64,000 nt of DNA from Opitutaceae bacterium (GTDB taxonomy: Bacteria; Verrucomicrobiota; Verrucomicrobiia; Opitutales; Opitutaceae): the NCBI GenBank assembly GCA_016794625.1, contig JAEUGY010000037.1:229071-293070 (forward strand). Reading direction: 5' to 3'. Below are positions 4,216 through 40,105 of this stretch, one piece after another. How positions within the stretch are numbered: position 1 is the stretch's first letter; every line of letters begins with the position of its first letter. The notes under the pieces were generated by a model. It was given only the letters and a program-made list of their open reading frames with translations, made no database searches and had not been told where the DNA came from. The position numbers and the translations under genes were made by a program.

Positions 4216-5835
4216 TCAGTAGGTGAAGGATTCCCCCGGGAGGGCAGGAGTGGAGACGGGCGGGCGCCGGTGCCGGGTGGTGCTCTCGTATCCAGCGCCC
4301 ACCGTCAGGAGCGTGGGCTCGCTCCACGGTTTGCCGAGGAACTGCAGCCCAAACGGCATGCCGTCGCCGGGAAAGAAACCGCCGGGCACGATGAGGGTAG
4401 GAAGTCCCGTGTAGGAGCTGAGACTGTTGCGAGTCTCCGCCCGGCCCCCGCCGCCTTCGGCGGGAATCGTGTCGATGACCGCCGTGCGAAAGGGCAGCAC
4501 GAGTGCGTCGAGCTGGTGCTTTTCGATCAGCGCCACGAGGGCGGCGCGCAACATGTCCTGCTGCCGTTAGGCGGCGATGAGTGGCGCGTGGCGGTCGAGC
4601 CGGCCGATTTTGGCTGTCTCGATGATGCCCGGTTTGACGAGGGCTCCTCCCTTGGCAATCATCTCCTCGACCGTGCGGATCGGCGCGGTCGGAGGGAGGG
4701 CGGAGAGATACTTGTTGATCGCGTCGGCCCGTTCGAATGACGCGGCGGCAGCGTCGCTTTGCACCTGCACGAGGTCCAGGTGCGTCAGCACCGGATCGAC
4801 GACGACGGCTCCGGCCTTGCGCAGATCGGCGACCGCCTGATTGAACAAAGCGGTGCCTTCGGCGTGCAGGGCGCCGGGGCGCACCATCTCCCGCAGCACG
4901 CCGAGCCTGGCCCCACGCAGACCATCCGGGCGGACAAAACTGACATAAGGTGCGTCAGGCAGCCGGCCGACACAGGCTTCCGTGGCGAGGTCGGCGGCGT
5001 CGTAACCGGCGATGACATCGAGCACCGCCGCTGCATCCAGCACACTGCGCACCATGGGCCCGCCGTTTTCCTGGCGCGGTGAGCTCCACATCATGCCCGT
5101 GCGGGAGACGAGGCCGTGGGTCGCGGAGAGTCCGACCAAATTGCTGTTGGCGCTCGGAATGGTGATGGAGCCGCCGGTGTCGCTGCCCAATCCAAGAGTG
5201 CCGAACCATGCCGCCACGGCTGCACCGGTGCCGGAGCTGGAGTGGCCGGTGCTCTTTTTGGCATTGTAGGGGCTCAGCACCTGGCCCTTCAGCGTGCTCG
5301 CTCCCGCCGGGGCGACACCGTACCAGTCGGATTGGTTGAGTTTGGCGAGAATGATGATGCCCGCGGCGCGCAAACGGGCGATGACAAACGAGTCGCGCGA
5401 GGGCTGGGAGGTCGCCATCGGCAGGAAGCCGCCGGTGGTTGGCAGGTCCGCTGTATCGTAGACATCCTTGACCACGGCGACCAGACCATGGAGCGGGCTG
5501 CGCGCGCGCCCCGCTTTGCGCTCGGCGTCCAAGGCGCGAGCCTCCTCCAGGGCGCGGGGATTGAGTGTGATGACCGTGTTGAGACGCGGTCCGGACTGAT
5601 CGTAGGCGGCGATGCGTGCCAGGTAAAGACTCACCAGCCGCTCGGAGGTGAGGGCGCCGCGCTCCAGTACCGTGCGCAGCTCCGCGGTGGTGGCGGTCGC
5701 CAGATCGAACGTGGCCGCGCGGGCCGGGGGGAATGCGGCCGACAGGACGAGCGCCAGGGTGAGAACGCGTGGACGCAGCGCGTGCGTCCAGCGGGGCGAG
5801 GGGCGCGGGGTGTCAGCGATCGGACAGGGTGACAT
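4216..5835 (-). pseudogene. amidase-signature gene split by one in-frame stop (AS-2)
   Basis: This AS-family gene reads as 422 residues from ATG 5835 to a TAA at 4567-4569, then continues in the same frame for another 117 codons to a TGA at 4216-4218. The intact neighbour (5813-7450) has Tyr at the aligned position and no length difference around it: RLERNRRLAAIYRQQ there, RLDRHAPLIAA-stop-RQQ here. A single base change from TAC or TAT explains it. The triad (Lys123, Ser199, Ser223 in SDTGGS) lies in the first part. The missing C-terminal fifth normally completes the AS fold, so the product is probably inactive. Readthrough or a base-call error are alternatives. Its start overlaps the end of the upstream amidase by 23 bases. 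Confidence 0.85.
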
Positions 5836-35163: not shown

Positions 35164-36801
<1,638 letters not shown>

Positions 36802-36817: not shown

Positions 36818-37612
36818 ATGCTTTACGATCCGTCCCGCTTGTTGTTGATCGCCGGACCGTGTTCGCTCGAAAACGAAGGGGTGTGCCGGGCGGTGGCGGA
36901 AACGTTGGTGGCCGTGCGCACGCATCACCCGGAGTTGAACGTGGTGTTCAAAGGGTCCTACGACAAAGCGAACCGGACCTCGCTGGCCGGCCCCCGGGGC
37001 ACGGGACTGGAGGAAGGGCTCCGCCTGCTGGCCCTCGTCCGACGGGACTACGGTTTTCCGGTGCTGACCGACGTGCATGAGTCCATCGGAGTGAAGGCGG
37101 TGGCGGAGGTCTGCGACGTGGTGCAGATTCCAGCCTTTCTCTGCCGGCAAACCGATCTTCTCCTCGCCGCGGCGGCAACGACGCGGGTCGTCAACGTAAA
37201 GAAAGGTCAGTTTCTTTCACCCCAGGAGATGGTCCATGTGACCGGCAAGCTGCGCGAAGGCGGGGCGAAGGAAATCTGGCAGACCGAACGTGGCACAACC
37301 TTTGGTTATCAGAACCTAGTGGTGGACATGCGGTCGTTCTCGATCATGAGACAGAACGGATATCCGACGGTCTTTGACGCGACTCACGCGGTGCAGCTGC
37401 CGGGCGCGGCCGGAGGCAAGAGCGGCGGCCAGCGCGAATTCGTTCCTCCCCTGGCGCTGGCGGCGCTGGCGGCCGGGGCGAACGGACTCTTCATCGAGAC
37501 CCACCCGGACCCGGCGCAGGCGATTAGCGACGGACCGAACATGATTGCAACCAAAGACTTGCCAGACCTGATCGAGCGGGCGCTGGCCGTCTGGCGCGCC
37601 GTGCGCCGTTAA
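36818..37612 (+). CDS. kdsA: 3-deoxy-8-phosphooctulonate (KDO8P) synthase
   Basis: A 264-residue KDO8P synthase that condenses PEP with arabinose 5-phosphate for the inner core of lipopolysaccharide. Start ATG 36818. The metal-ligand position is Cys15 in IAGPCSLEN, as in the metal-dependent class; the metal-free E. coli enzyme has Asn there. [11 protein letters not shown], the DVHE block, and KKGQFLSP follow. It is immediately downstream of pyrG, a pairing seen in several bacteria, since CTP is needed to activate KDO. Confidence 0.94.
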
Positions 37613-37696: not shown

Positions 37697-39322
37697 ATGG
37701 ACACCTACCTCATCGACGTTCCGATGCCCTCGATGGGCGCCACGGTCAGCGAGCTCACCATCATCGATCTCAAGATCGAACCGGGTACTGCCATCTCCAA
37801 GGGGCAGAAGATCGCTGAGCTGGAGAGCGACAAATCGGTTTTCGAATACGAATCGCCCTGCGATGGGGTGGTGGCGGCGGTCCGCTGCCGACCGGGCGAT
37901 ATCGTGGCGAGCGGAGGACCTTTTCTGCGCATCAAGACGGCGGATGTGGGTTTGCTCCACTTGCGAGTCACCTCGGACGTTCCGGTCGATGTCGCCCCCG
38001 CGCCGGCGGCCCGGCCGGCGGCAACCCCGGCACCGTCCGCTGCTCCCCTCGTGGCCTCGCCTGTTCCCGTCGCGCCCGTGTCAGCGCCCGCATCCGCTCC
38101 CCTGGCCGCGCCGGCCGTGGCCACCCCGGTGGCGAAGGGACCCATTTGGACGCCGAGGGCCATCAAACTCGCGCAGGAGGCGGGCTTGGATCCTTTGACC
38201 CTTACCGACATGCCGGCCACCGGTCCGGGCGGGCGGGTCTCGGGCGACGATGTCACCCATTACCTCGCGCGGCGTCAGACACCGGCGGTGCAGCCGGTGG
38301 TGGCCTCCGCCCCGGCCGTGCCGGCTGATCGTGGAGTCGAGACCGTGTGCATCGCCGGTGTTGGATACGCGGTACCGAAGAACATCAGGCCGACCAGTGA
38401 AATTTTGCGCGCGTTTCCCGACCGCACGGAAGCGGAGATGCTCAAGCTGACCGGCATCAAGGAAAGGCGCTACGCGGATGGCGATGAAACCGCGACCAGC
38501 CTCGCCGCCACCGCCGTACGGAACGCGCTGGAGCAGGCGGGAATGCCGTTGAGCCAGATCGATGGCATCCTGATGGCGACGATTCTGCCCGACCAGCCGG
38601 TGCCGGCGATGGCCAGCGCGCTGGCGCGACACCTCGGGATTCCGCGCGTGTTTGCGTTCGACCTCAATGCCGCCTGTTCGGGCTGGCTTTATGCGCTCGA
38701 AGTCGGTCGGTCCCTCATTCGCGGGGGCTCGGCGAAAAACCTGATTGTCGTCACGGCGGAGCTCCTTTCACGCATCACCAATCCCAAGGACCACGAGACC
38801 GCGTTTCTCTTCGGAGATGGTGCCGGAGCCGCGATCCTCAGCCATGCCGATGGCGGCCATCGCCTTCACCGGATGGCGTTGTCGGGCGACGCCACCCAAT
38901 TCGCGGCGATCCAGCGGCCGGGCGGCGGGGCGACCCGTCCGTTCCCGGCGCCCGGCGGGGCGGATCAGGCGGATTTTTATCTGCAGATGAACGGGGCTTC
39001 CGTGTTCAAGAGCGCGGTGGTGGCGTTTGCCGACCAGATCGAGGCCACCTTGCAACGCCATCAACTCGCTCCGGAGGACATCTCCTGGGTGGTGCCGCAT
39101 CAGGCGAACGAGCGCATCCTCCGCGCGGTCAGCAAACGGATCGGCATCCCGTTCGAAAAGGTCGTCATGACCATTTCCCGCTATGGCAATACCAGCGGAG
39201 CCTCGGTCTCGATGGCCTTGGGCTGGGCGGCGCAGGAGGGTATCTTCCAGCCCGGTGACCGGATCATCTTCTGCAGCGTGGGCGCGGGACTGACCTTTGC
39301 GGGCGGGCTGCTGGTCTGGTAG
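37697..39322 (+). CDS. lipoyl domain / E3-binding domain / KAS III (FabH-like) fusion
   Basis: A 541-residue continuous protein with three domains not usually joined. Residues 1-85 are a lipoyl domain: Lys46 lies in ELESDKSVFEY, the lipoylation pattern rather than the biotin MKM. Residues 150-190 are a peripheral-subunit-binding domain (TPRAIKLAQEAGLD, then GPGGRVSGDDV). Long Ala/Pro linkers (95-147, 195-212) join them as in E2 acyltransferases. Residues 213-541 are a ketoacyl-ACP synthase III with Cys327 (NAACSGW), His468 (VPHQAN) and Asn498 (YGNTSGA). The E2 catalytic domain is replaced by the condensing enzyme. I infer that acyl groups made on lipoyl by a 2-oxoacid dehydrogenase may start fatty-acid or polyketide chains directly. 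Confidence 0.9.
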   Translation: MDTYLIDVPMPSMGATVSELTIIDLKIEPGTAISKGQKIAELESDKSVFEYESPCDGVVAAVRCRPGDIVASGGPFLRIKTADVGLLHLRVTSDVPVDVAPAPAARPAATPAPSAAPLVASPVPVAPVSAPASAPLAAPAVATPVAKGPIWTPRAIKLAQEAGLDPLTLTDMPATGPGGRVSGDDVTHYLARRQTPAVQPVVASAPAVPADRGVETVCIAGVGYAVPKNIRPTSEILRAFPDRTEAEMLKLTGIKERRYADGDETATSLAATAVRNALEQAGMPLSQIDGILMATILPDQPVPAMASALARHLGIPRVFAFDLNAACSGWLYALEVGRSLIRGGSAKNLIVVTAELLSRITNPKDHETAFLFGDGAGAAILSHADGGHRLHRMALSGDATQFAAIQRPGGGATRPFPAPGGADQADFYLQMNGASVFKSAVVAFADQIEATLQRHQLAPEDISWVVPHQANERILRAVSKRIGIPFEKVVMTISRYGNTSGASVSMALGWAAQEGIFQPGDRIIFCSVGAGLTFAGGLLVW

Positions 39323-39352: not shown

Positions 39353-40105
39353 TCAATTCTGCAGCTCGTAGCTGAGAATGCTGAGCGCGTAGACAGCGGC
39401 GGTCTCGCAGCGCAGCACGAGGGGGCCGAGCGTCACGGGTTCAAAACCAGCCCGGGTGCTGGCCTGCATCTCCTCCGGACTGAAGTCGCCTTCGGGTCCG
39501 ATCAGCCAGAGCACCGTGTGGGGTGGCTTGGTGTGCCGCTCGCGATACGCGGCGAGCACGGCCTTGAGGGAGCGCGCTCCGGGCTGGAGCGAGGCGATGA
39601 GTTTCAGGTCGTATCCGTGACTTGACTCCATGAATGGAATCACCCGCTCCATCGGACTGATGTCCGGCAACCACGGATTGCCGCACTGCTTGGCGGCTTC
39701 GAGCGCGGCGGTCTGCCACTTCTCGACTTTGCGATCCTGGCGGTCCCCTTCGAGGTGCACCTGGGTCCGCGCACTCTCCAGCGGCACGATCCGCGCGGTG
39801 CCGAGTTCGGTCGCTTTGCGCACGATCGAGTCCATCGCCGTGCCCTTGGGCAGCGCCTGCCCGAGCGTCAGCCGGTGCGGCAGCGGGGGGGCGGTCCGGC
39901 GGGAGTTCACCCGGATCACCGCGCTGCGCTTGTCGGCGCGCGTCAGGGTGCCGAGCCATTCGGTGCCGTGGCCATCGAACGCCACCACTGCGTCTCCGGA
40001 CCGGGCGCGGTTCACATTGACCAGGTGATGCGACTCATCGGGCGAGAGCAGCAGCTCCGAGGGATCCCGAGACGAAGGCCGGCAGAAAACGCGGAAGTCA
40101 GTCAT
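39353..40105 (-). CDS. rsmE: 16S rRNA (uracil-1498-N3)-methyltransferase
   Basis: A 250-residue RsmE-family SPOUT methyltransferase that modifies U1498 of 16S rRNA. Start ATG 40105 (MTDFRVFCRP). An N-terminal PUA-like half (PDESHHLVNVNRARSGD) precedes the knotted SPOUT half with LGQALPKGTAMDSIVRKATELG and the cofactor block LIGPEGDFSPEE, then LGPLVLRCETAAVYAL. It converges on the KAS III fusion and diverges from mfd; the 287 bases to mfd hold no gene that I can support. Confidence 0.93.
   Translation of the reverse strand: MTDFRVFCRPSSRDPSELLLSPDESHHLVNVNRARSGDAVVAFDGHGTEWLGTLTRADKRSAVIRVNSRRTAPPLPHRLTLGQALPKGTAMDSIVRKATELGTARIVPLESARTQVHLEGDRQDRKVEKWQTAALEAAKQCGNPWLPDISPMERVIPFMESSHGYDLKLIASLQPGARSLKAVLAAYRERHTKPPHTVLWLIGPEGDFSPEEMQASTRAGFEPVTLGPLVLRCETAAVYALSILSYELQN

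Follow-up and report, generated by a model that had tools for sequence, protein, structure and literature searches.

Bacterial fatty acid synthesis is generally taken to start from acyl-coenzyme A (acyl-CoA) at beta-ketoacyl-acyl carrier protein synthase III (KAS III, or FabH), and the peripheral subunit-binding domain is the usual anchor of 2-oxoacid dehydrogenase complexes. In Staphylococcus aureus, according to the available text of PMC10026030, a branched-chain 2-oxoacid dehydrogenase and FabH make up a route to branched fatty acids. Here we describe a gene in which elements of both are joined. It lies in a 64,000-nucleotide stretch of DNA of an Opitutaceae bacterium (assembly GCA_016794625.1, contig JAEUGY010000037.1, forward-strand positions 229,071 to 293,070; hereafter the window), and it encodes a single chain in which lipoyl and subunit-binding domains precede a KAS III. 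We consider it probable, judging from sequence comparisons, that this fusion serves as the E2 of an unpaired E1alpha-beta, and that the lipoyl arm would hand its acyl group directly to the cysteine of KAS III, for transfer to malonyl-acyl carrier protein (malonyl-ACP) with no acyl-CoA formed. The fusion gene and its parts are the following:

37697..39322, + strand: lipoyl, subunit-binding and KAS III fusion gene, 541 residues (open reading frame, Pfam, NCBIfam)
37715..37933, + strand: lipoyl domain, residues 7-79 (PF00364, Biotin_lipoyl, E 1.2e-12; predicted fold)
37832..37834, + strand: Lys46, predicted lipoylation site in ESDKS (motif conservation)
38150..38254, + strand: peripheral subunit (E3/E1) binding domain, residues 152-186 (PF02817, E3_binding, E 1.6e-7)
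38345..39319, + strand: KAS III (FabH-type) condensing domain, residues 217-541 (PRK09352; Foldseek)

The frame starts with ATG and ends with a stop codon at 39320-39322. All four Pfam matches in its product exceed the gathering score (31.8 bits against a cut-off of 23.7 for PF02817), and two of them are the halves of KAS III, ACP_syn_III at residues 321-395 (E 1.7e-24) and ACP_syn_III_C at residues 452-541 (E 3.7e-30). The NCBIfam model PRK09352 (KAS III) matches residues 217-541 with 306.9 bits, above its cut-off of 249. The fabH model TIGR00747 gives the fusion 278.4 bits, below its cut-off of 292.1, whereas the canonical FabH of the source genome (6.4 Mb, 95% complete) scores 404.8 bits. 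The initial annotation of this DNA had read the protein as lipoyl and subunit-binding domains followed by a KAS III in place of the E2 acyltransferase. The Pfam and NCBIfam matches bear out that architecture, and the 2-oxoacid_dh acyltransferase core (PF00198) gave no Pfam match at E <=1; the fusion was therefore not classed as an E2 by family. In an AlphaFold2 model (mean predicted local distance difference test score, pLDDT, 78; pTM 0.69), the pLDDT is about 90 for residues 1-90, about 82 for the binding domain, and mostly 70-96 for the KAS III part, which is weaker at residues 401-440 (56-74). The linkers 98-146 and 195-213 have a pLDDT below 50 and are disordered. The top eight Foldseek matches of the KAS III fold are all FabH structures (target TM 0.92-0.94).

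A homologue search with the fusion gave 4,459 matches, the 120 best listed of which span 99-100% of the query, and a search with a fusion of family f66 gave 7,906, with the 120 listed spanning 98-100%. Precomputed lipoyl and KAS III domains accompany the listed homologues in both searches; the binding domain is absent from some entries. Since the listed homologues span 98-100% of the query with both domains, misassembly is excluded, and chance or misassembly as the source of the fusion was ruled out.

The lipoyl-binding-domain protein and KAS III form a fused chain in many genera, and in others they are two adjacent open reading frames, the lipoyl one first. In 13 of the 14 split loci fetched, the lipoyl frame stands directly before KAS III, and the remaining one (L086) ends at a contig edge. 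At the split locus L085, the two frames (4222-4686 and 4683-5690) overlap by 4 bases. A third state, lipoyl-only, was found in ten genomes of five genera, in which the lipoyl-binding-domain protein stands alone after kdsA (Pfam on three). These lone proteins (L105-L114) have 156-205 residues in nine cases and a longer frame in L114, and they carry no catalytic domain. The lipoyl motif is kept in 119 of 120 listed short lipoyl-binding-domain proteins, lone and split pooled. Additionally, genome G241 has a second, divergent fusion copy (L098:3456-4979, contig C66), whose KAS III is 54% identical to that of the window.

To compare active sites, KAS III parts were aligned with E. coli FabH from NC_000913. 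The residue counts given below cover 208 listed fused proteins. The aligned positions in the window are the following:

38675..38677, + strand: Cys327, catalytic, E. coli Cys112 (alignment with E. coli FabH)
39098..39100, + strand: His468, catalytic, E. coli His244 (alignment with E. coli FabH)
39188..39190, + strand: Asn498, catalytic, E. coli Asn274 (alignment with E. coli FabH)
38435..38437, + strand: Glu247, replacing FabH Trp32, adenine stacking (alignment; role from the available text of PMC4606726)
38447..38449, + strand: Leu251, replacing FabH Arg36, pantetheine contact (alignment; role from the same text)
38792..38794, + strand: His366, replacing FabH Arg151, on the other side of the adenine (alignment; role from the same text)

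Cys327, His468 and Asn498 are invariant in 45 aligned fusions, and the full Cys-His-Asn triad named in the initial annotation was confirmed, as Cys112, His244 and Asn274, together with Asn247, Arg249 and Lys256, are unchanged in 208/208 proteins. The position of Lys214 is Lys in 203 and Arg in 5. We take Arg249, Lys214 and Lys256 to be the ACP-side residues of FabH. The ESDKS lipoyl motif is likewise kept in 208/208. The CoA contacts, in contrast, are replaced throughout. According to the part of PMC4606726 available, the adenine lies between Trp32 and Arg151 of FabH and is bonded by Thr28, while several residues, Arg36 included, hold the pantetheine. Across the 208 proteins, the Trp32 position is acidic (Glu in 193, Asp in 15), that of Arg36 is Leu, Ile, Thr or Val, that of Thr28 is Arg, Lys, Met or Leu, and that of Arg151 is His in 143, Lys in 5, and Tyr, Phe, Pro, Gln or Asn in the rest. 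Thus, catalysis and the ACP patch appear to be retained and the grip on CoA lost. Moreover, the position of Phe87 holds Val, Ile or Thr in every one of these proteins, which suggests a wider acyl pocket.

Trp32, Arg36 and Arg151 are also missing from all 59 orthologous locus rows (fused and split, some genes being present twice). The same alignment held 17 rows of other FabHs, including three of the source-genome FabH, two of the distant C64 enzyme, which also lacks Trp32 and Arg36, and one of E. coli. Canonical FabHs retain the three residues in 15/15 family genomes, which comprise the source genome, three split-form genomes, eight lipoyl-only genomes and three with neither protein. In a tree, the fusion KAS III parts (81 rows) form one clade separate from canonical FabHs (SH-aLRT 99), the placement of which is unsure because the quick tree has long branches. 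Another KAS III-like family is present in these genomes (L003, L133, L134, L137, L138), in which E. coli Asn247 is replaced by Gly and Arg249 is not Arg.

An E1 that could load such a lipoyl arm was found in the source genome. Three strong PF00676 E1s are encoded there, besides two weaker matches in frames of 308 and 697 residues, and PF00198 occurs in only two proteins, named by NCBIfam as the pyruvate dehydrogenase (PDH) E2 and SucB. The third E1, a fused E1alpha-beta of 679 residues, is on contig C73, which has no PF00198 match; an ordinary E2 as its partner was looked for with PF00198 and none was found in the source genome.

We then searched 40 family genomes, chosen by E1 and KAS III state and independently of the binding domain, for that domain. 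A binding-domain protein other than an E2 was present in 34/34 genomes with E1alpha-beta (15 fused, 9 split, 10 lipoyl-only) versus 0/6 without it. A lipoyl domain was also seen in 32 of the 34, and in the other two (G306 and G338) the binding domain alone was seen, within a short frame directly before KAS III. In the six genomes without E1alpha-beta, all ten binding-domain loci are true PdhC or SucB. Within the genus g6, the E1 and the lipoyl protein occur together in G064, G117 and G155, and both are missing from G231 and G403. Read by eye, with a best E below 1e-100 as the criterion and one contig-edge piece (G292) added, the KAS III orthologue occurs in 107 of the 150 family genomes, together with E1alpha-beta in 103. 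The remaining 43 comprise 35 with E1alpha-beta and 8 from which it is missing too. Outside the family, 13 of 95 genomes of the order, all in families f66 and f76, have an E1alpha-beta orthologue, and in 11 of these the lipoyl protein and KAS III stand at one locus. In 27 order genomes without an orthologous E1, no such protein was seen by frame length and E1 neighbours, and five odd loci that were fetched are true E2s.

Where the system is missing, an E1-E2 of another type takes its place. Each of the six genomes that lack the system carries another E1, encoded by a frame of 1,048-1,131 residues; in five of them, E1alpha-beta is followed by E2-like sequence, and the fetched stretch of the sixth (G291) ends early. 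Pfam finds E1_dh, Transket_pyr, Transketolase_C, Biotin_lipoyl and 2-oxoacid_dh, and no binding domain, in the two chimeras examined. The chimeras at L189:1740-4868, L190:1806-5036 and L192:1775-4927 (1,042-1,076 residues) each unite the complete E1 and E2 of a 2-oxoacid dehydrogenase in a single chain that has no subunit-binding domain. By its domains, the chimera would make acyl-CoA. E1 frames longer than 1,040 residues are present in 6/6 genomes without the system, in 6/9 lipoyl-only genomes, and in 1/13 KAS III genomes, and none is present in the source genome; frames of 2-oxoglutarate dehydrogenase (OGDH) have 912-1,004 residues for comparison. The one long frame fetched from a lipoyl-only genome (G117) is a chimera.

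The initial annotation had suggested that 2-oxoacid decarboxylation leads directly into chain initiation, bypassing acyl-CoA. The replaced CoA contacts, the unpaired E1, its co-occurrence with the binding-domain protein and the other E1-E2 type in genomes without the system all support this suggestion at the level of sequence. The partner E1, the split and lipoyl-only states and the chimera lie beyond what that annotation covered. In the mechanism that we infer, a 2-oxoacid, in all likelihood branched, would be decarboxylated by E1alpha-beta, which would transfer the acyl group to lipoylated Lys46. With the arm reaching into the tunnel of KAS III, the acyl group would then move to Cys327, and malonyl-ACP, bound at the conserved Arg/Lys patch, would be condensed with it to 3-ketoacyl-ACP. 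Finally, E3, predicted to be recruited by the binding domain, would reoxidise the dihydrolipoyl arm. Ordinary FabH, with its CoA site kept, probably starts straight chains from acetyl-CoA.

A branched substrate for E1alpha-beta and its KAS III is likely by sequence. The best match of the alpha half of E1alpha-beta is a branched-chain E1alpha (1dtw_A, 104.7 bits), ahead of the best pyruvate E1alpha (72.5 bits); none of the NCBIfam E1 cut-offs is reached by E1alpha-beta. The lipids of one carrier of the fusion, Rariglobus hedericola, contain 31.1% anteiso-C15:0 and 8.3% iso-C14:0, as given in the available text of PMC12193912. Its binding-domain proteins stand beside the PDH and OGDH E1s and in the fusion only, and searches with the binding domain and E1, PF00198 not being searched, found neither a long E1 frame nor a further binding-domain E2.

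Several observations weigh against this reading. Concerning the substrate, a second branched-chain E1alpha (1qs0_A) scores only 46.4 bits, below pyruvate E1alpha, and the E1beta half gives nearly equal scores for pyruvate and branched-chain enzymes (208.1 and 206.8 bits). These scores leave room for the same CoA-free mechanism acting on pyruvate or 2-oxobutyrate and starting straight or odd chains, as would the lipids, which hold both straight and branched chains in the parts of PMC12193912 and PMC13274419 available. However, the best E1alpha match is a branched-chain enzyme, the Phe87 pocket position is small in all fused proteins, and the source genome already has PDH and a canonical FabH, so that we regard such a substrate as unlikely.

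The membrane lipids do not discriminate either. Anteiso-C15:0 and iso-C14:0 are reported for Cephaloticoccus primus (PMC13274419, available part), branched fatty acids are major in Opitutales of other families, which were unsearched by name (PMC12193912 and PMC10288369, available parts), and Lacunisphaera limnophila has 48.6% iso-C15:0 (PMC5303756, available part). L. limnophila (G231) has no E1alpha-beta, lipoyl protein or KAS III. Branched fatty acids, being common in the order, are therefore no marker of the system, and their use as such was ruled out by the iso-C15:0-rich L. limnophila. Thus, branched starters in the lipids, which the initial annotation had proposed to look for, are on record for R. 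hedericola but are not diagnostic. The iso-C15:0 of L. limnophila would be explained by the chimera that it has instead. In addition, 2-oxoacid:ferredoxin oxidoreductases and acyl-CoA synthetases, which lie outside the searches made, could supply branched acyl-CoA.

Concerning distribution, E1alpha-beta was not found in 4 of the 107 KAS III genomes (drafts, 68-94% complete), and the lipoyl protein is missing from two (88 and 92% complete) of the 13 genomes outside the family that have E1alpha-beta. All genome counts are raw counts among related genomes, with kinship ignored. The main difficulty is posed by the ten lipoyl-only genomes, which keep E1alpha-beta and the lipoyl protein without a KAS III orthologue, and in which these two must therefore act without KAS III. 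A takeover of the lipoyl route by FabH after the loss of KAS III was considered, and no sign of it was found, as FabH keeps its CoA site (Trp32, Arg36 and Arg151) in all eight of these ten genomes examined. C. primus (G108) is such a case, having E1alpha-beta and the lipoyl protein but neither a KAS III orthologue nor a long E1 frame. Its acyl group would have to go to another acceptor, perhaps FabH or the PDH E2 core.

The lipoyl-only genomes would fit a scheme in which E1alpha-beta and the lipoyl protein load the acyl group, the core of the PDH E2 moves it to CoA, and KAS III is an optional consumer, and the CoA site kept by FabH in these genomes would fit it too. Such a scheme does not account for a KAS III that is joined to the lipoyl protein, or stands next to it, and has lost its CoA site, and the chimera-sized E1 frame of six of the nine lipoyl-only genomes (confirmed as a chimera in G117) also speaks against it; we hold it to be quite improbable. 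Equally doubtful is that the N-terminal domains merely tether KAS III to a complex, where it would use acyl-CoA from a neighbouring ordinary E2 by proximity channelling, as the anchoring role of the binding domain and the long, chimera-sized E1 frame of the KAS III genome G015 (itself a point against our reading) might suggest, but the loss of all four CoA contacts, with an acidic residue for Trp32, a conserved lipoyl motif needless for a mere tether, and a partner E1 without an E2 in the source genome stand against it.

In a search of 286 genomes of the class, 19 reach 400 bits, each belonging to the family of the source genome. The system is also carried by families f66 and f76 of the order, a wider range that this search missed because its sample had no genome of either. 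Named carriers of the fusion, among the matches listed, are R. hedericola, Termitidicoccus mucosus and Pelagicoccus albus. A scan of genome contigs, which detects close relatives only, gave 15 loci, of which 13 are labelled Verrucomicrobiota, one is in a Sumerlaeota metagenome-assembled genome, and one is a weak Prevotellaceae KAS III; no sound fusion was found by it outside the phylum. The genome labelled Candidatus Sumerlaeota (L157) has a fusion 75% identical to that of the window on a 3.2-kb contig, which is probably a binning error.

The neighbours of the fusion gene in the window are the following:

35173..36801, + strand: pyrG, CTP synthase, upstream of kdsA (TIGR00337)
36818..37612, + strand: kdsA, KDO-8-phosphate synthase, a frequent upstream neighbour (TIGR01362, above cut-off)
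39353..40105, - strand: rsmE, 16S rRNA methyltransferase, a frequent convergent neighbour (TIGR00046)

The lipoyl protein is directly preceded by kdsA in 31 of 40 annotated loci, the window included. E1alpha-beta stands directly before kdsC in 23 of 25 genomes (KdsC by TIGR01670), and in 7 of 8 long-enough stretches the order continues with lptC-lptA-lptB (LptB by family match, lptC and lptA by eye). At one example locus, L046:5091-9620, E1alpha-beta directly precedes the lipopolysaccharide genes kdsC and lptC-lptA-lptB. In all seven genomes of g16 and g18 covered, E1alpha-beta and the fusion are about 10-18 kb apart, in G208 only if the contig is circular. Elsewhere in the source genome, the canonical FabH gene adjoins plsX, and the lipoamide dehydrogenase gene adjoins sucB.

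Taking the sequence comparisons and the gene order together, we lean towards a broader proposal, namely that these proteins may constitute a novel type of 2-oxoacid dehydrogenase complex whose last step forms a carbon-carbon bond, in which a 2-oxoacid and malonyl-ACP would give a branched 3-ketoacyl-ACP, CO2 and NADH free of acyl-CoA. It would be the main branched starter route of many Opitutales, and the order of genes (kdsA, kdsC) would link it to lipopolysaccharide assembly. If this holds, it would be a new way of beginning a fatty acid. Branched-chain membrane synthesis would be uncoupled from the CoA pool and tied to the release of NADH and CO2 in one complex, which would account for the branched lipids of Opitutales such as Rariglobus, in which the searches made found no ordinary branched-chain E2. 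The system could also serve as a module for branched fatty acids in engineered hosts, and the natural states, fused, split, lipoyl-only and chimeric, make the question testable in cultured, non-pathogenic bacteria.

No description of such an enzyme was found among the papers listed from the open-access literature searched, in agreement, within that literature, with the initial annotation, which knew of no described enzyme of this kind; among the matches listed, database names, where given, are plain beta-ketoacyl-ACP synthase III or hypothetical protein. Like the E2s PdhC, SucB and BkdB, the fusion has an N-terminal lipoyl domain with the DK motif, an Ala/Pro-rich linker, a subunit-binding domain and a C-terminal domain that handles the acyl group. 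Unlike in them, this last domain is KAS III instead of PF00198, and the predicted acceptor is malonyl-ACP and not CoA. With FabH/KAS III (PRK09352, TIGR00747), the fusion shares the fold, the Cys-His-Asn triad and the basic residues of the ACP side, but it differs in its replaced CoA contacts, its extra lipoyl and binding domains, its separate clade and its TIGR00747 score below the cut-off. The chimera of E1alpha, E1beta, lipoyl and 2-oxoacid_dh parts (L189, L190) has the same E1 and lipoyl domains, its E1 part being 28% identical to E1alpha-beta; however, its last domain is an acyltransferase core, it lacks the binding domain, and it occurs in genomes without the lipoyl-KAS III protein. Compared with the dehydrogenase-FabH route of S. 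aureus, the predicted start (a 2-oxoacid) and end (a branched 3-ketoacyl-ACP) are the same, but the S. aureus route passes through free acyl-CoA, whereas the fusion is predicted to use a protein-bound acyl-lipoyl intermediate. Every part of the fusion is thus already known, and what would be new is the predicted acceptor of the complex.

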